64,000 bases of DNA. Source: Chamaelirium japonicum. Lineage: Eukaryota > Streptophyta > Magnoliopsida > Liliales > Melanthiaceae. Location: positions 9,788,840 to 9,852,839 of the forward strand of contig OX393555.1 of the NCBI GenBank assembly GCA_947650365.1. The letters run 5' to 3'. Both the position numbers and the translations under genes were made by a program. The notes under the pieces were generated by a model that had not been told where the DNA came from, searched no databases, and was given only the letters and a program-made list of their open reading frames with translations. Positions 653 to 62,046 of this stretch are shown here, piece by piece; the first letter of the stretch is position 1; every line of letters begins with the position of its first letter.

Positions 653-3600
653 ATGGAGCGCAGATTCGAAGAGCAAGGCCAGCTCCAGCTGATGGATCGA
701 GATGACACCGAGGAGGAGCTGGACTGCTTCGAAGCCATTGACAAACGTGAGATCTCAACACGATTCCCCCTAATCTTCTTTATTTACCGATGTTTTCCCC
801 TTGTTCGACTGAATTCCTGAAGAAACTAGGCTAGAATTTAGTCGCTCTGCATCTCGTTAATCAACAAGTAGATTTCAGCTCGTTTTTATGAAATCACTTG
901 GAAATTCAAGAAGAATTTTAGCTCGTATCAAGTAAATTACTTCAGAAACTTTCTGTATTTTAGATCCTGTGTAGCAGATTAAACGCCAGCTTGATCTTCG
1001 GTCCGTTCTTTCGATTTCTTATACAAATACGCCGGAATTGAAAGGATTTTGATGATTTTGGGATTTTGAATTTATGCTAAGCCGTTTGAATTTGAATTTC
1101 TTTCCATTTTCCCGCTCCCTCCGGTCTTTGCAGTGATCTCTCAAGGAATCAATGCGGGAGACATCAAGAAGCTTCAGGATGCGGGGATCTATACCTGCAA
1201 CGGCCTCATGATGCATACGAAGAAGGTTTACATGATCTGCTGCTTCAGACGGAAGGACACTGTAGGACCACCTCCGTTACTTGACCGTCATCTCTTTCCG
1301 TTTTCGTTCCTCTGCAGAATCTGACGGGGATCAAGGGATTGTCGGAAGCGAAGGTCGATAAGATCTGTGAGGCCGCCGAGAAGCTTGTGGTTAGAGCTCC
1401 GTTCCCTCTCGGTGAACTTGCGGCTGTTATTGTTTTGTTTGTTTAGCTGAGTCTCTTTCTTTCTTCTCAGAACGTCGGTTACATCACCGGAAGCGATGTG
1501 CTGCTCAGAGTAAGATCCGTTGCTCGATGCTTATGCGGCTATGCCGCATGCTAAAATGCGCCTGATAGGCTATCCGATCTGAACCGTTGGACTTGCTCCA
1601 CTGCAGTTCATCGGATGGATCCAATCGTTCAAATCTAAACAAATCGCTCACTGAGATTTATGTATGTTGCAGCGCAAGGCGGTGGTACGGATCACGACCG
1701 GAAGCCAGGCCCTGGACGAACTGCTCGGCGGTAACCTCTTCGAATATTTCCTCACGAATAACAAACCGACTGATTCATGCGGGGTGCAAGATTTTAATAG
1801 ATGTTTGATATTATCGCGATTTGGTTGTTTTGTTTAGGCGGGATTGAAACGCTTTCAATCACGGAGGCATTTGGGGAGTTCCGGTAAGACCGATTTAATC
1901 GTTTTTTTTCCTGTTAAATATTCGACAAAAACAGGATCTATATTTCAATCTGACCGTTGATGACCGTTCATCAGATCGGGCAAAACCCAGCTGGCCCACA
2001 CGCTCTGCGTTTCTACACAGGTCTCTACCCAATCCTTCGCGGTACTTACGTTGTATAACCATTCAAACCACAGCTCAACCGTTGATCTTACGTCTGATGC
2101 TCTCTGCAGCTTCCGGTCCATATGCATGGCGGCAACGGAAAAGTGGCGTACATTGACACGGAGGGAACATTGTATCCTTTTGTGTTATCATCCCCGCGGG
2201 TGCACTGTATTAAACCGTACATAGCCTGGCCTACCTGTTCGATCTTGACGCTCACTCAGCCGGCCGGACAGGATCGTGCCGATCGCGGAACGATTTGGGA
2301 TGGACGCCGGCGCGGTGCTTGACAACGTGAGTCTTCGATCTCTCGACCACCCTGATCATGATATTAGTCTTTCTTTGTTGTAGGTTTAATATCCTCCCTG
2401 TTCGGCTGTTTTGAATGAGAGAGCAGATCTTATACGCACGTGCGTACACGTACGAGCACCAGTACAACCTGCTCCTCGCTCTGGCTGCCAAGATGTCCGA
2501 AGAGCCCTTCAGGCTTCTGGTGAGTCCCTTTCTTGGTATCTCTGCAACGGTAGTATCCAGTAGATAAGTGCCACGTGTGCTTTACGATATTGATCGGTGG
2601 CTCTCAGATCGTGGATTCGGTGATCGCGCTCTTCCGTGTGGATTTCACCGGGAGGGGAGAGCTAGCTGAGCGGCAGGTATATATATATGACGGAGTGGCC
2701 GACACGCACCGTCGACTCCATCTCACGGTGCATCGCATGACACGTGTAAATCTTGAACGAATTCGGCTTGATCTTACACGTGCGATCATCTTGTTCGTTT
2801 ACAGCAAAAGTTGGCCCAAATGCTGTCACGCCTTATAAAGATCGCGGAGGAGTTCAACGTCGCCGTGTACATGACCAACCAAGGTTAACGTCACACCCTC
2901 CATATTTGGTTGCACTCAAGGGTTTTACGATGATATAAAACATTTTTTTTACTAATTTTTTGATTTATTTGTTGGCAGTGATTGCGGATCCGGGCGGTGG
3001 AATGTTCATATCGGACCCGAAGAAGCCCGCGGGAGGGCACGTGCTGGCGCACGCGTCCACAATCAGGTTGATGCTGAGGAAGGGCAAGGGCGAGCAGCGC
3101 GTGTGCAAGATCTTCGACGCCCCCAACCTCCCCGAATCCGAAGCTATATCCTTCTAATTTAGCTAGAAAAAATTTTCTTATTTATTTATTAAAGCGTAAA
3201 TTACATTTTAACCCATAAAATTTATCCCAAAATCACTATGCCCCTCTGTTAGTTTGATTTGTTCCAAATGGGTCCCTATAGTTTTAAAAGCTAGCAAATA
3301 TAATTTCTGCCTAATCAAACTGAATTGAAGCGGGGGAAATATAGTTTATTAACTTTAGGGGGGTGTTAAGTGATTTAGGAATAAACTTCATGGGGGGGCA
3401 AAGTGTAATTTATCTTTTGTTTGGGTTATTTTGACTTTGCACCCCAAGTTTGGCCTTGAATTAGACTTTACCCCCCATAATTTCATTATTTAGACTTTAC
3501 CCCCCAAAACCAACTGTTCCGTCAGCTCATCCCCAAAACATTATTTCTTTTCCGTCAAATGACGGAACAGTTAGATTTGGGGGGTAAAGTCTAATTAATG

Positions 3601-4850
3601 AAAAGATGGGGCGTCAAGTCTAATTCAAGGCTAAATTTGTGGGCAAACTCAAAATAATCCTTTTTTTTTTTTGAAAAATTTTATTCATACCCCATAAATC
3701 TGTAATTAGCCCCCATTACCAACAAACTTGAACACACCCCATTTTTTTTTTCATACCCCATTCCTATCCCAAAAATACCCTTCCCCTTTACACCCCACCT
3801 TCAATACACCCCAGTTAAATGGCCCACCCCAACTTGATTATACCCCAATCAAACACATACCCCCTTAAATATACCCCAATTATATGCACTCTTGAATACA
3901 CCCCACTCTTAAATAAACCCCATCCAGTTGGCTTGTACTTGAAGACACAAGTAGAGCTGCAACTTGGGCGGGCCAACCTGAACCCAACCCGAGTCCAACC
4001 CGAACTCAACCCGAATTTGGGCGGGCTAATCCGAGCCCAACCCAAATTATTTCTCCTCAACCCGACAGGACCCGACACGAAGTTAGCGGGTTTGGGTCAA
4101 GGCTAAACGGGTTCGGGTCGTAAACGGGTTGGGTCCGGGTTTAGGGTCTGGACAAGGTAGACCCGGGAAGACCCGTTTAGTATTCAACGGGTCGGGTCGG
4201 GTCGGGTCTACCAGCAATCAGATACTATAATATGTAATACCAGTGGGTCTTTCGGGTCAGGTCGGGTCGAGTCGGATTGGGTCGGATCGGGTCAACTGAA
4301 TAGATCCGGGTGGTAAACGGGTCTTATCGTGTCTACCCGTTTATTAGCGAGTCGGGTACGGGTTTAGGATCTAGACACGATTAGATAAACGGGTCGGGTC
4401 CGGGTCAAGGGGTTTTGGACACGACACGACCCATTGCCAGCCCTAGCTGCAACTTGGGCGGGCCAACCCGAACCCAACCCGACTTTGGGCGGGTTAACCC
4501 GAACCCACCCCGCACAACCCGGCCAACCCGACGGGTTGGGCTTGGGCTAAGTTTAAACAAACCTTGGGTTGGGTTGGGGGTACAAAAGACCCTGAGTAGG
4601 GGCTTTGGGGTAAAAAAAAACAAAAAAGGGGGCATTGTTGGTATTAAAGGATTGTTGAGTAAGTTATCGAGAAACGATAGGGATACGGGGGCTAATTACA
4701 GATTTTTGGGGTATGAACAAAATTTTTCTTTTTTTTCAGTTAAAATTTCAGCTCCTCAGCTTCGAGGAGCTTTCTACTTGGTGGCCCTTGACACGTGGCG
4801 ATCACGTGTTTCAGATAACCCCAGGGGGGGTCGCGGATGCAAAGGATTGA
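653..4850 (+). CDS. DMC1: DMC1 meiotic recombinase, 14 coding exons
   Basis: Meiosis-specific RecA/RAD51-family recombinase; it coats resected ends at meiotic breaks and drives interhomolog strand invasion in the nucleus. Coding exons: 653-746, 1134-1225, 1318-1389, 1471-1509, 1673-1730, 1838-1883, 1975-2020, 2110-2171, 2260-2326, 2427-2519, 2608-2676, 2805-2883, 2979-3145, 4806-4850. They join in frame to 342 codons plus TGA; the family is usually about 344. Visible: N-terminal helix-hairpin-helix region (about 33-99), Walker A GEFRSGKT (131-138), Walker B LLIVD (222-226), and the DMC1-type C-terminus ending DAKD. RAD51 differs in the N-terminus and in many core residues. The start at 653 is the first ATG in frame with the family; an in-frame TTG near 458 overlaps the TATA box and was rejected. 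Eleven introns are GT-AG of ordinary type; the introns at 2172 and 3146 look U12-type. All ATPase motifs are intact and no frameshift is seen. Confidence 0.96.
2172..2259 (+). other. U12-type GT-AG intron 8 of DMC1
   Basis: The donor reads GTATCCTTTT, the consensus for a minor-spliceosome 5' splice site. The sequence ATCTTGAC at 2242-2249 fits the U12 branch site, with the branch A (2248) 11 nt before the CAG acceptor. Length is 88 bp and the intron splits the Phe codon after EGT. It has no polypyrimidine tract typical of U2 introns. Confidence 0.8.
3197..3413. mobile_element. MITE copy 1 (TIR taaattacattttg...)
   Basis: Inside DMC1 intron 13. The ends are inverted (TAAATTACATTTT... and ...CAAAGTGTAATTTA) around a T/G-rich interior. 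The right half, including GGTGTTAAGTG, matches a second copy at about 60836-61024. No coding capacity. Confidence 0.65.
3423..3660. mobile_element. Hairpin MITE, 238 bp
   Basis: The two halves are close reverse complements: GGGTTATTTTGACTTTGC at the left and GCAAACTCAAAATAATCC at the right. Both arms carry the block CCTTGAATTAGACTT and ACTGTTCCGTCA. Transcription of DMC1 pre-mRNA would place a long hairpin in intron 13. Confidence 0.7.
3673..4728. mobile_element. TIR element with nested GGGTC-rich repeat
   Basis: Terminal inverted repeats of about 45 bp (GAAAAATTTTATTCATACCC at the left, its near complement at 4684-4728) bound about 1,056 bp. The middle (about 3952-4520) is degenerate GGGTCGGGT/ACCCGAACCC repeat with hAT-like ends: TAGAGCTGCAACTTGGGC near 3953 and CCATTGCCAGCCCTA near 4432-4446. 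A block starting GCTGCAACTTGGGCGGGCCA occurs twice, near 3957 and 4447. No transposase is present. Nested insertion is likely but the order is not resolved. Confidence 0.6.
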
Positions 4851-12560: not shown

Positions 12561-13205
12561 GACAGATGGCTCTGATGAAAGGAATGAGATTCCGAATCAT
12601 TATCAAAAAATGGGGGTTAAATCTAAACCGTTGACGATGGGCTTCTAATGGATGCCCTTTTTTGTCTAGTCAGTTTGTTTATTTTTGTCTAGTCAGCTTG
12701 TTGTTCTATTTTGTATAGTCAGCTTGTAGACTATCGTGCCATGTTATATAGAAAGGTTTACTTTGCTACTGTTTGGATTTAAAAAGTTTAACTAGTAGTA
12801 AAAAAGTTTTACTCTGAAAAAACCAAGTAAGACTTTTGATTTACTATTAAAAGGCTATGTTGACCCATGTCACATCAGCAACTACATGATCGAGAGAGCA
12901 TCCCCTGATGGATTCAACTATCTCCACTAATCATTCTAGTTTCAACGGCTAAGATCTATGTGCCATGAGATGAGCCCTAAGGGGATGCCACCACCACCAG
13001 TCGTGTGACGACCAAGATCCAATAGGCCAAGAGCCAAGAGCCAAGAGCCAAGACTCCTGAGGCTGGAATGCCAAGATGGATGAGGTGAGGTGTACAAGGC
13101 CACGAGTTAGCTCCACATCGCTTGGAGAGAAGGAGATCCTGAGCAACTTATATAATTTCCCCTCCCAAACATAGAAGACGCATTTTAAAACCGTGCGCCG
13201 CTACG

Positions 13206-13290
13206 GAATTCGTAAGAACTCCGTAGTTAAGCGTGCTCGGGCGAGAGTAATACCAGGATGGGTGACCACCCTGGGAAGTTCTCGTGCGGG
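13206..13290 (+). ncRNA. 5S rRNA-like domain in left Cassandra LTR
   Basis: Contains the 5S internal promoter blocks AGTTAAGCGTGCTCGGGCGA (A-box region) and GGATGGGTGACC (C box). The 5' part of 5S is replaced by other sequence. It is a retroelement-borne copy, not a genuine 5S gene; Pol III activity is possible. Confidence 0.88.
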
Positions 13291-13630
13291 CACGGGCAAA
13301 GCGGACAAAATCTTGTGTGTTTGGGGCGGATGTTACAAAATGGTATCAGAGTCGGTTCTCCTCGGGATGGGGGGGGTCTAACCCTACACGAGGACATGTA
13401 GCCCTAAGGGGGGTGGATTGTGACGATCAAGATCCAATAGGCCAAGAGCCAAGAGCCAAGTGCCAAGACTCCTGAGGCTGGAATGCCAAGATGGATGAGG
13501 TGAGGTGAGGTGAGGTGTACAAGGCCACGAGTTAGCCCCACATCGCTTGGAGAGAAGGAGATTCTGAGCTACTTATATAATTTCCCCTCCCAAACATAGA
13601 AGACGCGTTTTAAAACCGTGCGCCGCTACA

Positions 13631-13715
13631 GAATTCGTAAGAACTCCGTAGTTAAGCGTGCTCGGGCGAGAGTAGTACCAGGATGGGTGACCACCCTGGG
13701 AAGTTCTTGTGCGGG
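13631..13715 (+). ncRNA. 5S rRNA-like domain in right Cassandra LTR
   Basis: Same 5S-like blocks as the left LTR, with a few substitutions (AGTAGTACCAGG here, AGTAATACCAGG in the left copy). Confidence 0.88.
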
Positions 13716-13767
13716 CACGGGCAAAGCGGACAAAATCTTGTGTGTTTGGGGCGGATGTTACAAGTCG

Positions 13768-16215: not shown

Positions 16216-19200
16216 GAGGCTGCGCAGTGATGGGGATGCTTCGGCGATGAGGGCTTTCTCCCAATTCATCCGGCATCAAGAGTTGATCGATCTTCCCTTG
16301 TCCGGACGCACTTTCACGTGGAGCAACAAGCGAGAAGACCCGATTTTGGCCAGGCTGGATCGGTTCCTGATCTCGTTGGATTGGGACTTGCGCTTCCCCG
16401 GCTCGATTCAGGCAGGACTGGCTTCCTGTGTTTCCGACCATGCACCTATCCTTCTCTCTACTGATACGATCTTGCCAACCCGGCCACCTTTTCGGTTCGA
16501 GTCGATGTGGTCTATGGAGGAGGGTTTCGAGGACTTGATTGCCGGGTGGTGGGGCGAAGCAGGGTATGTTGAGAATTCGGCTCTGAACATGGCGAGGAAG
16601 CTCAGATACATCAAGAAGAAGCTTCAGTCCTGGAGCAGGGCTCATTTCGGGAATGTTCTACGTCAGAAGGCCTCAACCTTGGCTGAAATTCAGATGCTGG
16701 AGGCCAGAGGAGAGTCTGCCGTCCTTACCACCCCGGAGGCCGCGAGGTTGAACGAGCTGAACCAAGACCTCGTGCTCCTATTACGGAAGGAGGAAGGAAT
16801 GTGGAGGCAGCGCTCGAAGGAGCAGTGGGTGAAATTAGGCGATGCGAACACCTCCTACTTTCATAGAGTTGCTAATGCTCGGAGGAGGAAGAATTTTTTG
16901 GCATCCCTGTGGCACGAAGACCGCGAGCTGACGTCCACGGCGGACATCCTCGGTGCAGCTACTTCTTTCTTCAAGTCCTCCTTCCGGGAGGATGAACTCT
17001 CGACAGGGCTTTCCTATGACTGGAGCTGTGCGGATTTCCCGAGGCTACCAGGGGGCTCGGGAGTCGATGCGGAGTTTACCACCGAAGAATTCCGGAAGGC
17101 GGTTTTCCAGTCCAAAAGCGATGGGGCCCCGGGTCAGGATGGGTTTCCAATGGAGTTTTACCAGAAGTTCTGGGACATCTTGAAGGACGATCTTTGCCGG
17201 CTGCTTCACGACTTCTTCTTGGGCAAGGTGCGTCTTCACTGCCTCAATCACTCGTGGATTATCCTTCTGCCTAAGAAATCTGCTGCATAGACCATTCGGG
17301 ACTTCAGGCCGATTTTCCTGTCGAACTGCCTCTACAAAATTATTACGAAGGTTTTAGCCAACAGGCTCGCGGACAACATCTCTCTGTTGGTTTCTCCTTC
17401 CCAGACCGCTTTCATCAGGGGGAGGCTGATCCTTGATAGTGTGGCGGCGGCTCATGAGACGATTTTCCACTTGCGTGAATCCGGAGAAGAAGGAGTGCTT
17501 CTGAAGATCGATTTTGAGAGAGCTTTCGACCAGATCAAATGGGATTTCTTGCTAGATCTTTTAAAGGCTAAGGGCTTCTCTGATGGATGGTTAGGGTGGA
17601 TTAGAGAGATACTGGTATCCTCGAAGCTATCTTGCCTTATTAACGGGGAGCAGGGCAAGGACTTCAAGGTTTACAAGGGACTGAAGCAGGGGTGCCCTCT
17701 GTCCCCGTATCTTTTCATCCTGGTGGTTGATGCCTTCGATGCAGCAGTTCGGAAGGCGAATGCTGAGGGTTTGGTTCGGGGAGTTGGCGGTCATGGCTGG
17801 ACAACCTCGAACTTGCATTATGCAGATGACTCCCTTTTATTCGCAGCAGCTTGTCCGTTCCAGTTGGTATCTCTTAAGATCCTCCTTTACGGGTTGGAGC
17901 TGACCTCAGGCCTGAAGATAAACTTCCAGAAGAGCAGTCTCTACTACATCGGACCGGGGGATGCAGGGTGTGGTTTGGCCAGACTTTTGAATTGCAGAGC
18001 GGCGAGCTTACCGATGAAGTATCTGGGACTGCCCATCAGTGATCGATCGCTACGGAGGGAGGATTGGGAGCAGCTAATCCTTAAGATCGAGAGGAGATTG
18101 GAGGGATGGAAGGGTCGTTTTCTTTCGTCAGGGGGTAGGCTGGTGCTGGTCAACTCGGTGCTATCTTCGATCCCTTCGTACTACCTTTCCTTCTACTACC
18201 TGTCGTTCTGGGTGGTAAAGAGGATTGACAAGATTCGGCGCTCCTTCCTCTGGCATGGTATGGGGGAGAATGTGGGAGGCTACAATTTGCTGAGGTGGGA
18301 CCAGGTTTGTCTTCCTAAGAAGATGGGAGGCATGGGGGTCCTGGACTTGCGCAGATTCAATATCTCGATGTTAGGGAAATGGTGGTGGAGACTGCAACAG
18401 AATTCTGGGGGGTCCTGGAGGGACGTCATTCTAGCAAGATATTTTAAGAGGTTCTCTCCCCTGCACGCTCGGGGTAGATCGTCGGGCCGGATCTCTCACT
18501 TCTGGAGGGGCATTCTGAGGGTTAGAGACCTCTATAGGGAGGCTACTTCGCTTGTTCTAGGCGACGGGAGGTCCATCAGATTCTGGAAAGATCCCTGGAT
18601 CGGTAACAGACCGCTGGAGCAGCTCTTCCCAGCCCTCTACTCCTTGGCCAGGAACAAAGGAGCCTCGGTCCGCTCGCAGGCTTGTCGGAGGCAGGGGAAC
18701 ATCAGGTGGCGTTTGAAGCTTGGTGCTCCGTTGAATCAAGAAGGTCGGCGGGAGTGGCAGGACCTTCTCCCGATTTTGCGGTCGGCCTCCTTCAAGATAT
18801 CCCGGGATGAGGTCCGGTGGAGCGCCTCGTCTTCCGGAGTTTTCTCCGTTTCCTCTTTCTACAACCATCTTCTGCCTCGGGTTCCACGCCATCGTCCTTC
18901 TAAGGCTATCTGGAAGACGAAGGCTCCCTCGAAGGTCCAGATCTTTTCCCTTTTAGCCTCGAGGAATAAGATTCTGACCAAGACTAATCTAATGCGGAGA
19001 AATCACCCACGGGTGTCGGATGCCTCTTGCACTTTCTGCGGTTCGGAGGAGGAGACTGCCTCTCACCTGTTGCTAGGATGCCCTTTTGTCAGGTCGTTGT
19101 GGGATCATTTTGAGAGTAGAGCGGGGCTTTCTTCCCATCCCATCAGGGCCCTTTGGACATCTTGGAGAAGGAGGAGAATTCTGAGGGAGATCCGGAAGCC

Positions 19201-19467
19201 GTGGGACGTTTTGGTCATGGCGATTGTGTGGGTCATCTGGCTAGAACGGAACAACCGGGTCTTCAATGCTAAGTCCGCAGGGCAGGAGAAGTTGAGGCAT
19301 TCTGTCATCTCCCTCTTCAGTGCTTGGATTGTACCTTGGCGGGATAAGCTAGGGGCGGAGGCACTCTGTTTTTGTAACGGTATCCTATCTTAGTTCGTAA
19401 TGACTTCTGGTTTGGGTCCGCCAAACCCTCCCTCCTGTTTGGAGGGGTTCTCAAAAAAAAAAAAAAA
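16216..19467 (+). mobile_element. 5'-truncated LINE with 13-bp TSD
   Basis: The duplication ACTGACTCAAATA flanks it (16203-16215 and 19468-19480). A poly(A) tail of about 16 ends it. The 3' UTR (19394-19452) carries a stem-loop, AACCCTCC...GGAGGGGTT, just before the A tail. The body holds the C-terminal part of an APE-type endonuclease, a full reverse transcriptase and the zf-RVT domain. Confidence 0.95.
16217..19393 (+). pseudogene. LINE ORF2 (endonuclease tail, RT, zf-RVT), one amber stop
   Basis: Reads in one frame from the truncated 5' end to TAG at 19391-19393, broken only by TAG at 17288-17290. Order: end of the endonuclease with SDHAPILL; a linker with the GDANTSYFH motif usual in plant LINEs; reverse transcriptase with SDGAPGQDGFPMEFYQ, FRPIFLSN, KIDFERAFD, GLKQGCPLSPYLFIL and the catalytic YADD (17818-17829); thumb KYLGLPISDR; and terminal zinc finger CTFCGSEEETASHLLLGC with WLERNNRVF. 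There is no RNase H. As only one nonsense codon interrupts it, the copy is fairly young. It lacks its 5' end and is not expected to move. Confidence 0.93.
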
Positions 19468-23722: not shown

Positions 23723-24000
23723 TAGAGAGAGAGAGAGAGTCTATTACCTTTCATGCATACAAGACCCTTGTCTTTGCTCCTTTCTGATCATCAGGAGTAC
23801 GTACAACAGAAGATCAAGACGAAGGAGTGAAGGAAAGCTCTTCAATGTAATGTATATGTTTGTCGGAGACAGAGAGATATCTAGAGAGAGGGATAGATAT
23901 CTAGAGAGAGAGAGAGAGTCTTAGTTCGTAGGTTGAGAAAAATCTACGGTTTTATGAGACTTGGGCTTTAGCATCTTTCCAATTCTGAGAAGGGAAAGCT
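23452..24000 (+). promoter_or_regulatory. YUCCA promoter and leader region
   Basis: A (CT)n tract (about 23452-23481) and a TATA-like CTATATATTGG near 23587 precede a predicted leader of about 390 nt rich in GA repeats (23684-23720, 23725-23740, 23893-23918). The leader holds upstream ATGs, including a start-stop ATGTAA (23845-23850). That overlaps by one base an ATG opening a 24-codon uORF (23850-23924). The transcription start is inferred. Confidence 0.5.
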
Positions 24001-24725
24001 ATGCTTTCAAACGGCAGTGAGACCACCACTGACCACCAAGGCAGCCGGAGCCCGAAGGTTTCGGCCGTTCCTGGCCCTATCGTCGTCGGCGCGGGACCCT
24101 CGGGCCTCGCGGTGGCCGCCTCGCTCCGCCGACTTTCGGTCCCCTCCCTTGTCCTCGAGCGGTCGGACGGCATCGCCGACCTCTGGCGCCGCCGCACCTA
24201 CGACCGCCTCTCCCTCCACCTCCCAAAGCCCTTCTGCCAGCTCCCCCACCTCCCTTTCCCTCCCCACTTCCCTAACTACCCCTCCAAGTCCCATTTCCTC
24301 CACTACCTCCACTCCTACGCCCACCACTTCTCTCTCCGCCCGCTCTTCCACCGCGCCGTCGTCTCCGCCCGCTTCGACGGCACTATCTGGCGGGTCACCA
24401 CCGTCCACCGTCCTCACCCGATCGACTCTCGGCCGTCGGAGCATTCGTGTGGCGGCTCACCGGGTGAGTTCGACGGAGCGGAGGTGGTGGAGTACGTGTC
24501 GCGGTGGCTGGTGGTGGCGACGGGGGAGAACGCGGAGCCGTCGGTCCCCGAGCTTAAGGGGAGGGAGGGGTTCAGGGGGGGTGTGTTGCATTCGAGTGAG
24601 TACAAGAGTGGGGTGGAGTACAGGGGGATGAGGGTGTTGGTGGTGGGATGTGGGAATTCAGGGATGGAGATGTGCTTGGATTTGTGCGAGCATGGTGCAT
24701 TGCCCTTCATGTCAGTGAGAAGTGG

Positions 24726-24803
<78 letters not shown>

Positions 24804-26184
24804 TAGGGTTTTCTTGACCTTACCCCTTCTTAATTAAAAACTATCACTTCCGGTCTTAATTTTTGAGTTTTAACCCTCGGTTGAAAATATCCTTGGTGCC
24901 CATAACGCTGATTTTTATGTGAAGTAACAAGTAACTATTTGGATTTGAGTTTCAACCCCTAGCTTCTAAATGTATTGAAATTAGATTCCCACAAAATCCT
25001 CATTCAGTGCCAAGAAGCTGATTCCCGCAGAAGCAGTTAGAATCAGTCTTTTTAATTTTTTTTTTTTTTTAGAAATTCATCCTTTGTGGGGGCCGGAAAT
25101 GGGGGTCGGGTTGGTATGGATCCCTACCAGTTTATTGATATAAGAATAATATTATAATAGATCGAGAAACAAATCAAACTTTCACAGTTACATTAAAAAA
25201 ACATTATATCTTTCAAATGATTCTGCTAGGCAACGGATGGACCAAAGCTTTACGAAATTCATGATCTTAAGCTCCACCTGTTTCATGGTGATAAAACTTA
25301 TTTTAAACTTAACATTCTAGAATTTCGCTCCAGTCAAAGACTCCAGCATGTAGCAATGGTGAAATTGTCCTGGCCCTAGGTGTGGATTTTACGAGAATCT
25401 AGTCGGCACATAATCAAATCCAAACATGCAGGCTCGGTAGTTTTATCTTTTTAACATGTGTGATCTCCATTATTGCAATTCAGAACTACGATTTCACACG
25501 ATGGACTTTTTCAATGGATGGTAAGAATAAAAAATTAAGAGTGAAGGGAGTGTTTTTCAACTACCCTAATTAACCGGGGGGTTAAGTATAACAAAACCTA
25601 TGATATGGGTCTGATGAATTTTTTGCATGCAAAAACAGGTGCATGTTCTACCAAGGGAGATACTTGGAATATCCACATTTTGGGTGGCAATGAAGCTGCT
25701 GAGATGGTTTCCAGTGAGATTGGTGGACAGATTCTTGCTCATGGTGGCCAAGGTGGTGATTGGAGACACAGAAGAGTTTGGGCTGAAAAGGCCCAAGATT
25801 GGGCCTTTAGAGCTAAAGAACAACACTGGCAAGACCCCTGTTTTGGATGTGGGAGCCCTAGCCCTGATCAAGGAAGGGAGGATTAAGGTGGGCCCATACA
25901 TCTCTGTGTGATAACCCAAGTAATCAATCTAGAAAAATGATGTCATTTTTGCAGTTTTATTAAATAAAAAAATCCCTCTTTCTGGATTCTCTTAAAAAAA
26001 ACAAATTTCTTTCTGGACCCAAATCCCAGTTTGGATGGCTCAGAGGATTTTATGTTGTCTTTTTCTGCCCCCCTCCCCCCAGATGCTTGTCTTTTTGTTG
26101 ATTTCTGCTATTTTTTGTAAATGCTAATTCTGCAATTTTATGATCATGGATGTATTTTCCTTTTCATGTCATCAGGCATTAGGA

Positions 26185-29939: not shown

Positions 29940-32110
29940 GTTGGATTTGGCCTGCGGCCAGCCATCGGCAGCACCCGAAAACTGATTGCATCCTTTGTGC
30001 CCGGTTGGGAGTCAACCGACCGCAGGCTCGACCCGGCACCCGACCGCAAGCCCGACCAACAGGACCACAGGCTCGACCGACTGGGCACTGACCAACCGGG
30101 CCCGGTCGGTCAGATTTACCCTGCGGCCTGCCTCCGGCAGCGCTCCATGACCGACCGCTCCTGGCTCGGTCGGTCGATGGCGACTGACCAGCCGGGCCAG
30201 CCAACCAACCGATCGCCCGGCCAGGCCAATCGACCGACCGGGCACGGGCACGGGCCGATTGACCAGACGCTGACCAACTGGGCTGGCCGATGCACCCGGC
30301 ACCGACACGCTGCGATCGACCGCCCGGCACACTCCCCGACTGACCGACCCCGGACAGCGGGTCAGCATGCATGGCGGTCGACCCCGGACAACGGGTCAAC
30401 GGACACGCCCTCGACCGGCCCTTGGCAGGGGGTCAACGGGTGTCATAGTCAACCCGGACAGTAGGTCGACGGACACACCCCTGGCCAGCCCTTTGCAGGG
30501 GTTCGGAGGGCCTCGACGGTAGGCCTCGGACAGCGGGTTGGCGGACACGCTTCTAGCCAGCCCTTGGTAGGGGGTCGGCGGGCTCGACGGACGGCCCTTG
30601 ATAGCCGGTCGACGGATATGCCCTCGGCCATCCCTTGGAGGGTGTGCGCAAGTGCGGCGGCCGGCCTTGGACATCGGTCGACGGGCACACCCCCGGTCTG
30701 CCCTTGGTAGGGGGTCGACGGGAGCGATGACCGACCCCGAATAGCAGGTTGACAGACATGCCCCGGCCATCCCTTTGCAAGCGGTCGGTAGGCGCAACGG
30801 TTATCCCTGGACAACGGGTAGGTAGATGAACGATGATCGGCCCCTTGGCAGGGGGTCGGCAGACAGACAATGGTCGGCTGCTCCGAACAGTGAGTTGACG
30901 GACACGCTCCTAACCGACAATTGGCAGGAGGTCAACGGGCGTAACAGCCTGCCCCGGACAGTGAGTCGACGGATACACCCTCGGTCGGCCCTTGGCAAGG
31001 GGTTGGCGGGCGCACCGATCAGCTTCGGACAGTGAGTCGACGGACACACCCCCGACTGGCCCTTGGTAGAGCGGGCGTGACGGCCGACCTTGTACAATGA
31101 GTCTGTGGACACACCCGTCCGGGCCTTGGCAGGGGGTCGACGGGCGCAACGGCCGACCCCAGACAGCAGGTCGACAGACACACCCTCGGTCAACCCTTGG
31201 CAAGGGATCGGCGGGCACGACTGTCGACCCCAGACAGTGGGTTGACGGACACGCCCCCAGCTAGCCCTTGGTAGGGGGTTGGCAGGCGCAACGGTCGACC
31301 CCGGACAGCAGGTCGGCGTACATACCCTCGGCAGGCGATCGGCGGGTGCGACGGTAGACCCCGGACAGCGGGTCGACGGATACACCCCTTGCTAGCCCTT
31401 GGTAGGGGGTCGTCGGGTGCAACGATCGGCCCTGGACAGTGGGTTGGTAGACGAACAACGATCGGCCCTTGGCAAGGGGTCGGCATACGGACAACGGTCG
31501 TCCCTGGATAGCGGGTCTTTGGATATGCTCCTGGCCGGGCCTTGGCAGAGGGTCAGCAGGCACGACGACCGGTCCCGGACAGTGGGTCGACGTACATGCC
31601 CCCTATCGGCCCTTGGCAAAGGGTTAGCAGGCACAATGGTCGACCTCGAGCAGCGGGTTGGCGGATACGTCCCCAACCGACCCTTGGCAGTGGGTTGGCG
31701 AGCGCAATGACCAGCCCCGGATAGTAGGTCGGCGGACACACCCTCGGCCGCCCCTTGGTATTGGGTTAGTCGGCACGACGGCCGACCCCGGATAGCGGGT
31801 CGGTGAACACTCCCCCGGCCGGCCCTTGGCAGGGGGTCGACGGGAGCAATGCCTGACCCCGGATAATGGGTCAACGTACACGCCCCCGGTTGGACCTTGG
31901 TAGGGGGTCAACGGGCATGACGGTCAGCCTCATACAGCGAATCGGCAAACATGGTCCTGATCGGCCCATGGCAGGGGGTCGGTAGACGCTACGGTTGCCC
32001 CGGACAACAAATCGACAGACAGAACTTTGGTTGGCCTTTGGCAGGGAGTTGGCTGATTCTTTCCAAATACTCATCAAGCCACCTCGATATCGACAAATCA
32101 GTTTTGCACC
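29940..32110. repeat. GC-rich minisatellite, unit about 71 bp
   Basis: From about 30340 to 32060 a unit of about 70-71 bp repeats some 24 times: CCCCGGACAGYGGGTCGACG, GACACRCCCCCGGYCGGCCC, TTGGCAGGGGGTCGRCGGGC. Before it (29940-30340) lies diverged sequence with two blocks of CCTGCGGCC...CGGCAGC about 165 bp apart. The minus strand stays open for up to 194 codons of PLPR-type repeats, but the unit length is not a multiple of three and frames switch, so no protein is called. The position just upstream of an LTR-like sequence fits the 3' untranslated arrays known in Tat/Ogre gypsy elements. Confidence 0.85.
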
Positions 32111-49990: not shown

Positions 49991-51449
49991 GGTTGGCGGC
50001 CTCCTCTTTAACTATTGTTGTAAAGATCAAAGTGAGGAGGAGGAGGACAACCTTCTTCATTGTTGATTCCAGATGGAAGAGGGGAGGAGGAGGGTGGCCT
50101 CCTCCTCCACCGTTGCTACTAGATCGAAGATGGGAGGAGGAGGGTTGTCTCCTCCTTCACCATTGCATCTACAATCTAAAAATAAGGGAGGATAACAGGC
50201 CATACTTTCCTCTTTATTGCTAATTGCACCACCCCCCCCCCCCCCCCCCCCCCAAACACACACATACACCCACCCACCCACCCAAAGGGGAGGAATGCGA
50301 CTGCCCCTTTGAGCATGGGTCGAGAAAAATGGAGAGAGAGAGAGAGAGAGAAGAACCCTCGTGTGACTGTATGGTTGTTGCCCTAACCCCCTCTCCCCTT
50401 TCTGTGTTTTGCTGCAAAGGGAGCAACTTATATGGTCAGACCCTCCTTGGAAATCCTTAGGGAAGTAGCCACCCATAGATGGACATCCCTACTTGTTGCT
50501 GACCTCCTATAGAAAGGGAGAAAACTTAGGGGTTGGCCGCCACCCCATGGGATTTGTTTCCTCATGTGGTTGGCCTCCTTTAAGAAGGAGAAAACCTAGG
50601 AGTCAGTCACCCTATGAGGATGTCTTTTCTTATGTGGTCGGTCTCCTATTAAACCAAGTGGGATGTCATCTTGTGTTTCCTTATTTGGTTGGCCCATAAT
50701 ATTTTTAGGAGATCTCTTTCCATATCTGAAATCACACACTTACGGCAAATGCATGAGGATGCTAGGGTCATCCTCCAGGTACATAAATACACCCACACAC
50801 ATGATCGACTGAGTCGCCTTATTTTACAGAGACTTGGCCTACTTTTGTAGACCCATGTGGGTCCCACATGTGGTGTCACTTAGTAAATCCTAGTTCTACT
50901 AGGATTCCCACTGAAGAGAGAAGCTATATTGAAGCATCGGTTCACCTAATGAAACCCTGACTTCTAGTACCACCTAGTTCTTCTTGTGTTAGGTATCCTA
51001 AGTCATTCCGGTATTATCCATGACTAGAACTCTTACTTGTACTAGGACTAGATTAGCTCGACTGTATAAAGAGATTAGGAGTTGGGATCAATTGGGACCT
51101 TGATGACATTGACTCCAACTGAACTTATGGTCCTAGTCATCTATGACTTATACTAAGATCTAATTAGCCATGGCTACAACCACGACTAAGCTATTACTTT
51201 ACTTTGAAATCATTAGATATTACACAAGTATCCCATGTCCACTATGTTACATTGGACCCCTCCTTCTGGTGTCCGTGAAGCTACCAAGGATCATAGATTG
51301 TCCATCCCAGCATAGCTTACCCACTCGATTCTCAATATTTTAAATCCTTGGGATCAATATTTTTACTTTAGAATCGTCTGGCAATACATGATGATAAACC
51401 TTTCATGGAAGTGGCTCAAGGAGATACCCAGCTCTCCTCAGTGAGTAAA
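49991..51449. other. Intergenic: C tract and short tandem repeats
   Basis: Two diverged units with GGGAGGAGGAGGGTTGTCTCC repeat at about 50060-50170. A poly-C run of about 23 lies at 50231-50253. A loose repeat of about 75-85 bp (GGAGAAAACCTAGGAGT, TATGTGGTCGGTCTCC) covers 50510-50700. 50880-51449 holds unclassified repeat-like DNA that continues after the foldback element at 54380. Confidence 0.45.
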
Positions 51450-54379
51450 TGTCACGCCCCGGATCCGGCTACAACAGAAACCAGCCAGACCCGAGGTGTG
51501 AGGGGGGTTAAGATGGGTAAGCCAACATAGTAAAATATTCTGGGGTGGATTTTATCAATTAATTTATTACTAAGTTATCATTGACTATTTATTATATGAT
51601 GGGGATGGCTTTGTGGAAAAGCCTATCGGGCTTTGAGGAAAAGTCTGTCAAACGAAAAGAAATGAAACTGGTATTTATTCAGAGCATCTAAAACAACCAA
51701 CAAGGTCTAGTCACTTATTACATAATCAATTGGAAATAAAGATCACAGCTAACTAATATTTCTAGAGTCCTCTCTCGACAGCTAAGCTCCTCTAGGAAGC
51801 ACCTGAGAAAGATCTATGGTACCTGAAAAGAGTGTGTAATAACATGGTGAGTTTACAAAGGTAAACTCAGTGAATAGTTAACCCTAAACTAACTAGGGTA
51901 AACTACAAATGCATTCTACCCATCTCGAGGTTAACGAGAGGAGCATTACATATCCATTTTAAATAATATTATTTAGTTTATACTAACAAGAGAGCAAGCA
52001 AAAGATACTACAACATACAGTACAATGTCAAACTACAAATTACAATAATACGATATTTAACCATTTACATCTACAATTATGATCATGAACAATGCAAGTT
52101 ATATCTAACCTACCCCTAGGGTAAACCGACAGTTTTCTACATGATTCTACCAACAGACAAAATATATTTCCAGTGTACTTGGTCAACCAGAAAATACTCA
52201 TATAGCCATAAGGGGGCTTGGTCTTTCACCATGGGGGCACTCATGCCTAGCTTGCTTCTTCGGGGTCATTACCCATGGGTGGACTACTAGGCCACTCGGG
52301 CTTTACCACCTGTCTAACCCTGTGACCCTACCTACTTTATTTGGATTTTGCATAGGCGATGGTTCATGTCTCATCATATGTACACGGGTCCCCTACTAAT
52401 GCTCATGGGTAATCATTTTTTCTTTCAGAAAACAACCTCAACTAAGAAAATATCTCAACCAGTTTCTCCACCGAGACTGCCAGCTCTTTGGTAACTCGAC
52501 TGCACTATGGGTCACATGGTCACCATGATTCAGTTTCAATCATTAATTTACACCGTAATTTATATGGAAAATCTACTAGTTCGCATGCATCCTACTGTAA
52601 GTTTAGGTTTAAGCTAACTACTATCGATACTATAAAGAATACTACACATGTATCATAAGTGATAAGAGAAAATATATATAGTTTCAGGGTTTGTTCAGAA
52701 GCAAGGCATAGTATGCCCACTTCCCACATGCAGTACTAGTCATCCTGTCTACATGCATTGGGCATAACCACATGCAATGTTTTGTTTATTTAGTTATATA
52801 TCTACTATACTACATATGATTATAGTTTGCCCTTACTAGAGTAGGGTCAATCATGTTCACCAGGATTGCAGCTCGGTGATCCCCAAGTGTTTTATCTTGG
52901 CAGTTTGTTCTTTCAGCGGCACAACGGACCCACGGGCCAGACACTTGGGGATCACTGAGTCGCAATCCAGGTAAACATGACTAACCCTACTCTAGTTAGG
53001 GCAAATTATAATCATATATGTAATATAGTAGATAACTAAATAAAAAAAAATATTGCATGTTGTCATAGTATGCCCAAAGCATGCATGCGAGATGACCGGT
53101 ACTGCATATGGGAGATGGGCATATTATCCTTAATTCTGATTGAACCCTAAAATTATATGTATTTTCTCTTATCGCTTATGATATATGTGTAGTATTCTTT
53201 GTATTATCGAAAGTAGTTAACATAAATTTAGACTTACAGTAGGATGCATGTAAACCAATAGATTCTTCATATAAATAGTATTATAAATGTTAATGATTTA
53301 AATTGAATCATGATAATCATGTGACCTATGGTGCAGGTGAGTTACCATAGAGTAACAAGGGCTGACAGTCTCAGTAGAGAGACTGGTTAAGACACTGTCT
53401 CAGTTAAGGTTGTCTTCCTAGAGGAAAGACTGACGACCCACGGACATGGGTAGAAGACCCATGTGCACAGGATGAGACGTGAACCACCGCTTGTGCACAA
53501 TCCGAATAAAGTAAGTAGAGTCACAGGGTTAAACAGGCGGTAAAGCCCAAGTGACCTAGTAGTCCACCCATGGGTAATGACCCTGAAAAAGCAAACTGGG
53601 CGGGAATGCCCCATGGTGAAAGACCAAGCCTCTTTATGTCCATATGGGTATTTTCTAGTTGATCAAATACATTGGGACAAGGTATTGTTTGTTGGCAGAA
53701 TCAGGTAAAAAATTACCGGTTCATCCTAAGAGTAGGTTAGATCTAACTTGCATTGTTCATGATCATGATTGTAGATGTAAATGGTTAAATATCGTATCAT
53801 TGTAACTTATAATTTGACATTATAATCGTATGTAGTAATATCTTTTGTTTGCTCTCTTGTTAGTGTAAACTAAATAATATTATTTAGAATGGATATGTAA
53901 TGTTGACCTCGTTAACCTCAAGATGGATAGAATGTGGTTGTAGTTTACCTTATTTAGTTTAAGGTTAGTTGTTCACTGAGTTTACATTTGTAAACTTATC
54001 CCGTTATTACACACTCTTTTCAGGTACCATAGATCCTTCTCAGATGCTTCCTAGAGGAGCTCAGCTAATGAGCGAAGACTCTAGAAGTATTAGTTGGCTA
54101 TCTTTATTTTTCAAGTGGCTAGACCTTGTTGTATGTTTTAGATGCTCTGAATAAATGTCAGTATCATTTCTTTTTGTTTAGTAGGCTTTTCCTCAAAGCC
54201 TGGTAGGTTTTTTCTCAAAGTCATCCACATCACGTAGTAAATAGTTAATAATAACTTAGTAATAAATTAAATGATAAAATCAACCCCATAACATTTTACT
54301 ATGTTGACTTACCCATCTTAACCCCCCGCACACCACGGGTCTGGCTAGTTTCCATTATAGCCGGATCTAGGGCGTGACA
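51450..54379. mobile_element. Foldback element, arms of about 1.44 kb
   Basis: The left arm (51450-52890, 1,441 bp) and right arm (52941-54379, 1,439 bp) are reverse complements along their whole length, with a loop of about 50 bp (52891-52940). Ends are TGTCACGCCCCGGATCCGGC and GCCGGATCTAGGGCGTGACA. Flanks GTAAA (51445-51449) and GTAAG (54380-54384) may be a diverged 5-bp duplication. TG...CA ends with a 5-bp duplication would suit an LTR-derived or palindromic solo-LTR origin; long inverted arms suit a foldback transposon. No ORF above about 75 codons. Confidence 0.9.
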
Positions 54380-54384
54380 GTAAG

Positions 54385-55715
54385 GGACTCCCATAGCATG
54401 CCTACGTTCTCCAGTCTCCAATGTAAGTCATCCAATCTTTCCAGATTTTGGCCTATGATAGGCCTTACTAATTGATAGGTCAAAGCGACAAACATCAATC
54501 CAACCTAGAATCCGCGTGATATTTTGGGATTTAGTATTTAGTTAACTAGTAGAAGAGTGATCATAGTCTTAGCGACAATTTATTACACTTAGTCCACTCT
54601 TTATTCTGTTCAGTGTACTCCAAGCACACCAACACTCCGGGATTAGAGCCAACCACTTCAATGGTCGAGATAGGCAATCTCTTTATTACGAGAAGTCAAT
54701 GGTGTTACAGTCTTGCATAATCTGGAGTCCATTCCAAATACTGAGTGTGAAATTACTAAGGTGTGTATAGTGCACTCAGATCTTCTATGTGTGGATCTCT
54801 TATAAACACCCGAGTCACGTACACTCCAGTGAACTAGTGATTTATATAAGAAAATTTGATTGTGTAAATGCAATGTCTTATTATTGTCAGACATACTGGA
54901 ATCGGTATGAAGGACACACCAATTCCAATATCCACCGGGGTGTAAATCAATAATGTTTTCTCTGAGTCAAATATGTAGAATCAAGTAAGTGTTCTCAGAC
55001 CGAATCCAAGAATTCTGTCACTTTTACATGCGGCCCATAGGAAGCACATATAGGTTGAAGGTCTTGTATGTGGGTAAAGGCCATTCCAGTCATGCCATGG
55101 CTGACTCTTCTTGATTAACCATCACCCATAAACCATGCCCACATTCTATATTTCCTTGGAGATGTTCGCATTACTGGATGGGATGGGGTCTCTGGGGCTC
55201 ATCAAGATACAAGAGATCAAAACCACTACAGTCACAAAAAACCTCCTAACCCGAATCATGAATGAGTCTCTGATAGCACTAGGGGCCCATCTCCTGTAGG
55301 ACCACAGCCAAGACAAGATCGAGATAGTTGGAGAAGAAAAAGAGAGGGTGACCCTCCTCCCAGCCCATGGTAGCGAGAATGTCTGCTATTAGGTGGAGCA
55401 GACTGGTTAGCAAGGGAGGCTAGGTTGTACAGACTAGAAGGTTTTGGGGAATCATATTTTCCTTCTACCTTGCTTGGCCTCGTGTGGGAGGACCTTAAAG
55501 TTGTGATGTAATGACCATTTCTGATCTACCAAAAAAAAAAAAGGTGGTACAGAGCATGGAAGAATATGTCTATAATGTGCAGTCTTGATTAATAAATGAA
55601 ATCTTAGAGTTCAATTTTTTTAGTATTTCTGAGTTTTTTTTTTCGTGCTTCAACTCTAAAAAAAAATTATGATCGAAGACATACTGTTGAAGCAAAAAAC
55701 AAAGCAAGAAAAAAA
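54385..55715. other. Intergenic, continuation of the pre-foldback sequence
   Basis: CTCCCATAGCATGCC continues the sequence interrupted at 51449. An A tract (55529-55540) after CATTTCTGATCTACC may end a non-LTR fragment. No gene. Confidence 0.4.
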
Positions 55716-55716
55716 G

Positions 55717-55718
<2 letters not shown>

Positions 55719-55754
<36 letters not shown>
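55719..55754. repeat. (TA)n left of Micron-like element
   Basis: About 18 TA units directly abut the left end of the element at 55755. Confidence 0.95.
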
Positions 55755-57495
<1,741 letters not shown>

Positions 57496-61189: not shown

Positions 61190-61510
61190 AGAAGAGTTAC
61201 AATTTTCTATTGTGATTTCACTGTAGCAAAAAAATAAAACAAAATTTCTCCGAAAAAAAAACCACGTTGAAATCATTATAGCAATTGTTACTCGTTTATC
61301 ATCGAATTGTTATTTTAAGCTATCACCTTAACAATTGTTACTCTTTATTACAGAATTGAGTAACAATTGCTACAATAATTTCACTGTAGCAAAAAAAAAT
61401 TTATTGAGATTTATCAAAAACAAATTTGCTACCGTGATTTCATTGTAGCAAATAAGACTAAGAATAAGACTAACATTCGAAAATAAAGAGTAAGAATTGC
61501 AAATAAGGCT
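61190..61510. repeat. Second GCTACAGTGAAAT-type palindrome cluster
   Basis: ATTTCACTGTAGCAAA and TTGCTAC.GTGATTTCA motifs alternate with GTTACTCTTTAT-type modules, related to the array at 38560. Confidence 0.75.
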
Positions 61511-61514
61511 AACA

Positions 61515-61800
61515 TTTGTGATTTTAGTATTAGGGGCATTTTTGTTATTTAAAGGGGAGAAAACTCAACGGAGAAACTTGCTCTAAATGCATCTTTTTTG
61601 AGAGGGACCAGGTGCAAAACCATCTTATTGCCTCTTTAAACTAAAAATGACCTTCTAGAAAGGACTTATTGTCAGCTCCCCTTTAAGAGAGTTTTGCACC
61701 AGTTTCCTCCATAAAAGATGCATTTACAGCAAGTTCTAATCTTGACCCTTTTTTTTCCTTTAAATGACAAAAATGTACCTAATCCTAAAATCACAAAGGT
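61515..61800. repeat. Inverted repeat, arms of about 105 bp
   Basis: GTGATTTTAGTATTAGGGGC ... AAATGCATCTTTTTTGAGAG (61515-61620) is mirrored by 61690-61800 (complement GTGATTTTAGGATTAGGTAC ... AAATGCATCTTTTATGGAGG). MITE-like. Confidence 0.7.
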
Positions 61801-62046
61801 TACTTTTCAATGTAGCAAAGAGTAACAATTCTCTAAGACCATGTTTGGGGAAGCTTCTCAATTCCCGCCCACTATAGTTCACCCGCCAATACAACCATAT
61901 GGTGCAACACCAAATGAGAGCTGAGGAGAGAAAACCACAACTAATGCATCGTAGTTTCTCTCTCCCTGTTAATATGTATTTTGAACTCAGTGTGCGGTGT
62001 CTTACGAGAGACGGCTCTCTATTCTGCTCCACCAAACACGTACTGA

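Follow-up and report, generated by a model that had tools for sequence, protein, structure and literature searches.

How does a plant genome come to carry 2.93 kb of DNA that mirrors itself about a short centre, with the TG...CA termini of an LTR at its ends? The question is raised by positions 51450–54379 of the window, by which we mean the whole 64,000-nucleotide stretch analysed (C7:9788840–9852839 of Chamaelirium japonicum). A sequence-only reading had described the locus as a near-perfect palindrome with a 50-bp loop, of LTR-like origin and unlike a classic foldback transposon. BLAST self-comparison placed the inverted repeat at exactly these coordinates and confirmed the arms and the loop; "near-perfect" does not stand, as the arms are 84.1% identical. 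The LTR-like origin was upheld by the TG...CA ends and by the match of both arms to a gypsy LTR. The possible 5-bp duplication GTAAA/GTAAG was likewise recovered, as a target-site-duplication-like flank matching at 4/5 bases. The features of the locus are as follows.

51445–51449, no strand: left copy of a probable 5-bp target-site duplication, GTAAA
51450–52890, − strand, 1,441 bp: arm A, an inverted copy of the 3′ (U5-side) 1.44 kb of a gypsy LTR, with a U5 end on the outside (left) that reads TGTCACGCCC on the + strand
52891–52940, 50 bp: loop and junction, between arms A and B
52891–52894, no strand: TTTA, where arm A meets the LTR-homologous loop (junction); in most copies it matches neither side
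52895–52940, + strand: loop proper, LTR sequence that is not duplicated and runs on into arm B
52941–54379, + strand, 1,439 bp: arm B, the sense-oriented 3′ (U5-side) 1.44 kb of a gypsy LTR, with GGGCGTGACA at its end
54380–54384, no strand: right copy of the probable target-site duplication, GTAAG, a 4/5 match

Anatomy and decay of the palindrome

The inverted match between the arms scores 2,375 bits; when positions 50001–56000 were shuffled 20 times by mononucleotide, the best inverted self-match reached 34.4 bits. Symmetry ends at the outer ends of the arms: in the 300-bp flanks the best inverted match is 10 bp (E 0.11). Across the 1419 aligned bases, 1194 are identical, and the arms differ by 174 transitions, 51 transversions and 42 gap columns in 11 gap openings, corresponding to a K2P distance of 0.184. 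Identity per 100 bp ranges from 75% to 89%, a spread slightly greater than binomial, and divergence is thus distributed over the whole length of the arms. All duplication lengths from k=3 to 12 were examined at the flanks. The 5-bp pair differs by one transition (P 0.0175 for k=5 alone), and the runner-up was k=9, with 5/9 bases matching (P 0.058).

Transitions between the arms fall at 31/58 CpG sites (53%), 23/80 CHG sites (29%) and 120/464 CHH sites (26%), and the observed/expected CpG ratio is 0.45 in the palindrome versus 0.70 in the window. The palindrome is an old, CpG-decayed repeat, and the decay observed suggests that it was probably methylated as a repeat.

RNA from the palindrome is predicted to fold along its axis. 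When each strand was folded alone and without a shuffle control, 1284 of 1286 predicted pairs on the + strand and 1282 of 1282 on the − strand lay on the palindrome axis; counting G-U pairs, 90.4% and 90.2% of aligned arm positions, respectively, are able to pair. A transcript of either strand, if made, would therefore be predicted to form a hairpin with about 90% of its arm positions paired, a possible substrate for Dicer-like enzymes. The 21–24-nt siRNA output suggested by the sequence-only reading is thus a prediction from folding. In the available part of their description (PMC4687873), endogenous inverted-repeat siRNA loci of the IR71 type resemble the palindrome in the long stem-loop transcript possible in both; here the arms are 84% identical and the fold is a prediction.

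Several other features lie in the window. Positions 13004–13763 contain a pair of direct repeats, each about 340 bp long and 94.5% identical to the other. A stretch resembling TGGTATCAGAG follows the first, and the second holds a 5S rRNA match (Rfam), which was the only match in the Rfam scan of the window and lies outside the palindrome. These repeats look like what we take to be a Cassandra-type TRIM element. A LINE-type reverse transcriptase with a zf-RVT domain, encoded in a 700-aa open frame, is found at 16217–19390. The open frame at 23989–24834, which has FMO-like and pyridine nucleotide oxidoreductase domains, is probably a host gene exon. Positions 30375–31916 hold a GC-rich (67%) minisatellite of 22 diverged copies of a unit of about 71 bp. 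Two short palindromes of the MITE or foldback type, of about 240 bp (3423–3660) and 290 bp (61510–61802), are unrelated to that at 51450–54379.

The source LTR family

Arm A was used to query the 1.52-Gb host genome and gave 44 matches from the best 40 of 1,371 candidates. The best-scoring copies are 81–82% identical to the U5-side half over 1.4 kb. Twenty matching regions were retrieved for comparison with the palindrome; they include two almost identical copies (L020 and L021, 0.999) and the two LTRs of one element (L012 and L013). All 20 hold a single arm with no adjoining inverted partner. Nineteen of them match arm B and on into the loop, which identifies the loop as LTR sequence belonging with arm B; in the remaining copy, L019, the match ends just short of it. 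Past the loop, the copies carry on into common LTR sequence that is absent from the palindrome. A query spanning the palindrome centre gave the same picture: among the best 40 of 122 candidates, the match at each of the 39 other places sets in at query position 152–165, mostly at 154/155 (52894/52895). These 39 places match the loop and arm B side only, and none spans the centre.

The family LTR starts TGTAACACC, ends GGGCGTGACA and is not palindromic. Its length is 3.4–3.8 kb in 12 of the 13 copies with both ends, and 4.26 kb in L010. In L011 and L012 (two of 18 flanks), a PBS begins 2 nt past GGGCGTGACA, matching 11/12 positions of TGGTATCAGAGC, which we take to be a PBS motif. GGGCGTGACA is thus the U5 end. 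No PBS was present in the other 16 of the 18 flanks, as expected of solo or 3′ LTRs; the end of L027 is damaged. Correspondingly, both ends of the palindrome carry GGGCGTGACA or its complement, making two U5 ends and no U3 end, and its 5′ terminus is TGTCACGCCC, not the family start TGTAACACC.

The internal sequence of L027 carries pol pieces in the order RVP_2, RVT_1, RT_RNaseH and Integrase_H2C2, the last at 25.4 bits against a cut-off of 25.5; the Integrase_H2C2 match of L012 reaches 64.9 bits. Overall, six of ten ORF pieces from internal domains gave a domain match. With protease, RT, RNase H and integrase in gypsy order, the source family can be assigned to Ty3/gypsy from its sequence. 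The search that the sequence-only reading had proposed, for single-arm copies and for a gypsy LTR matching one arm, thus found both, in the 44 matches and the gypsy pol domains. Its suggestion of a palindromic LTR fails, since the family LTR is asymmetric; in the alignments, the palindrome consists of two head-to-head copies of that LTR's 3′ 1.44 kb. As published descriptions go, the rice elements Retrosat2 and RIRE8 resemble the source family in having LTRs of more than 3 kb whose 3′ terminal 10 bases are GGGCGTGACA, and differ in that their LTRs start TGTCACACCC rather than TGTAACACC (PMC3485330, seen in part). Two pattern scans of viral contigs and one distant plasmid search gave no relatives beyond the host.

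The 13 LTRs with both ends were sorted into solo, 5′ and 3′ LTRs after their flanks had been seen. All seven solo LTRs with host DNA on both sides have matching 5-bp flanks, five at 4/5, like the palindrome, and two at 5/5; by chance, a match of 4/5 or better is expected at 0.017 and 5/5 at 0.0012. The other six adjoin internal sequence: five 3′ LTRs score 0, 0, 1, 3 and 3, and the 5′ LTR L028 scores 1.

The relationship of the two arms was analysed in a tree of 38 rows (36 LTR halves and the two arms; four of 40 copies, shorter than 900 bp, were left out). Arms A and B are sisters (SH-aLRT 89, UFBoot 97) on a short stem (0.012), in a tree that is near a star. Raw identity of arm A is 0.845 to L009 and 0.841 to arm B. 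The arms have three private bases in common, and unrelated pairs have up to four. With only three, the arms were not doubled after a long residence in the genome as one LTR. The arm sequences thus fit a doubling that took place at insertion or close to it and whose source had recently been active, and do not fit duplication of a long-resident LTR. They are compatible with one cDNA molecule or two, and the private bases do not demonstrate copying from one molecule.

Outward-facing U5 ends elsewhere in the genome

A 21-base U5-end pattern matched the genome at 420 + 383 places within three mismatches, compared with five for a control. A biased part of these at least 803 ends was compared: 100 of the pattern matches, merged with the matches of the arm A and centre queries, gave 158 distinct U5 ends, some with estimated positions. 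Within 15 kb of one another, these form 32 same-direction neighbours, two inward pairs and three outward pairs. All three outward pairs among the 158 ends have matching 5-bp flanks, at 4/5, 4/5 and 5/5.

Outward pair 1, C7:9840289–9843218: the palindrome, flanks GTAAA/GTAAG
Outward pair 2, C4:8907954–8916101: L049, flanks ATAAT/GTAAT
Outward pair 3, C3:69797030–69799469, 2,440 bp: L050, flanks CTCCC/CTCCC

In L049, a full LTR and the roughly 3.3 kb of internal sequence next to it point one way, and a U5-side LTR piece of 1,084 bp points the opposite way. The two arms agree at 975/1083 positions (90.0%), and 2–4 nt at the junction are common to internal and LTR sequence, varying with the copy compared. 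L049 reads as a minus-strand cDNA that was already beyond the first strand transfer, had reached 3.3 kb into pol and was joined to an inverted 1,084-bp U5 fragment.

L050 carries a 157-bp inverted U5 end. Its arms are 74.5% identical, and its left arm is 88% identical to the U5 ends of L028 and L043; being nearer to these than to its own partner, that arm indicates that the ends of L050 came from different templates. L028, L033, L035, L041 and L043 share a different U5 end variant, similar to the left arm of L050, and this subset suggests recombination between LTR subfamilies.

Among the best 40 of 2,566 candidates, the left end of L050 was found at four of the 40 scored places, all on C3. An ordinary LTR family with such a 5′ end was considered for L050 and rejected, the left end being confined to this C3 cluster among the scored places. 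Because L051, one of the four places, has flanks homologous to those of L050 on both sides, we read the C3 set as a single insertion multiplied by segmental duplication; the right U5 end is lost in L051. The region C3:69657524–69835300 is a tandem segmental duplication holding at least four copies of the left end of the L050 insertion.

Origin and significance of the palindrome

It is proposed that the palindrome is probably an aberrant Ty3/gypsy reverse-transcription product, inserted by integrase with two U5 ends. Minus-strand cDNA would start at the PBS, which in relatives lies beside the U5 end. After about 1.49 kb, still within the LTR, the growing strand would switch onto minus-strand DNA, either its own, with strong-stop DNA snapping back to prime itself, or that of a second cDNA sharing its particle. 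It would then copy this template back to the U5 terminus, and completion of the second strand would yield the 2.93-kb anatomy observed, a 50-bp loop between two arms that each end in U5. Integrase would join both U5 ends to host DNA, leaving the flanks GTAAA/GTAAG. L049 would result from a switch made later, once the first strand transfer had taken place. Against two-U5 integration, the duplication at the palindrome is 4/5 and not 5/5, and two of the three outward pairs have imperfect flanks. The 4 bp TTTA at the junction is unexplained, and there is no clear microhomology.

The primary paper on strong-stop DNA self-priming is said to be that of Guo in 1997. In HIV-1 work, self-priming of minus-strand strong-stop DNA is an aberrant cDNA product, as outlined in PMC4668388; the snap-back step proposed here is the same, and the palindrome differs in being an apparently integrated genomic fossil of a plant element. 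Complex LTR elements of Triticeae, rice and maize have been described as composites from aberrant reverse transcription with one flanking 5-bp target-site duplication (Sabot and Schulman 2007, PMC1950507, in the part available). The palindrome would be like them as a composite from aberrant reverse transcription, its one probable flanking duplication pointing to a single integration. By the same account, those elements have components in the same orientation, two cores and a third internal LTR, whereas the palindrome has inverted halves, no core and U5 at both ends. No description of an integrated U5-U5 palindrome was found in the open-licence literature on palindromic and inverted-repeat LTRs, as covered mostly by titles and the starts of abstracts.

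Other origins would have to account for the same anatomy. Two opposite solo or 3′ LTRs could have lost their 5′ halves together with the intervening DNA and been end-joined at 52890/52895. Such a chromosomal fusion would suit the 4-bp filler at the junction, the mere three shared private bases and a divergence between the arms about equal to that of independent copies of the same age. It is nevertheless unlikely, as both LTRs must have broken at nearly the same LTR position, to within about 50 bp, and chance must have given outer flanks that match at 4/5 in register (P about 0.017); nor would independent insertions predict the 4/5 and 5/5 flanks of the other two outward pairs. Local inverted duplication of one integrated LTR, started by an internal break and carried out by fold-back repair or by replication, yields a palindrome with a short loop. 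We consider this improbable: outward copying would not halt exactly at the LTR end, the flanks are without symmetry, the match resembling a target-site duplication lies outside the duplicated end, the arms have almost no private mutations in common, and other U5-U5 loci with target-site duplications were found.

The TG...CA ends, the size near 3 kb and the 5-bp flank would also suit a solo copy of a family with palindromic LTRs, and the accessible part of PMC3485330 gives 10-bp inverted LTR termini for rice Retrosat2 and RIRE8. That reading is very hard to sustain when 20 of 20 retrieved copies are single-armed, normal LTRs start TGTAACACC and the second arm is absent from all 39 other centre-query places among the best 40 of 122 candidates. 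The chance that the palindrome is a DNA transposon of the foldback or Mutator type, bounded by long terminal inverted repeats, is slight in the extreme; such an element would have long inverted arms and a short centre, but the arms belong to a gypsy LTR. Moreover, for Mutator-like elements a 9–11-bp duplication with at most two mismatches is expected, according to the part of PMC3310237 available, and the 9-, 10- and 11-bp flanks here match at 5/9, 2/10 and 2/11. An assembly or read fold-over, for which nothing observed here speaks, can be virtually dismissed: arms of 84.1% identity together with CpG decay are not those of such an artefact, the 16% divergence comprising 11 gap openings and CpG-weighted transitions. 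The genome search also returned the locus at C7:9840289–9843218, though from the same assembly.

Beyond this locus, the aberrant-product origin leads to a wider proposal, which we regard as evenly poised: plant gypsy integrases may repeatedly insert two-U5 cDNAs arising from minus-on-minus priming. "U5-U5 elements" would then form a fossil class that ranges from short-armed to fully palindromic, and the palindromic ones would be transposon-seeded hairpin genes that could silence their own family. If such products integrate, failed strand transfers leave traces in genomes that can be dated, and integrase needs no U3 end. The signature of outward U5 ends with a 5-bp duplication is searchable in any LTR-rich genome. 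Retrotransposons, if such integration occurs, can make hairpin loci, perfect at birth, against themselves.
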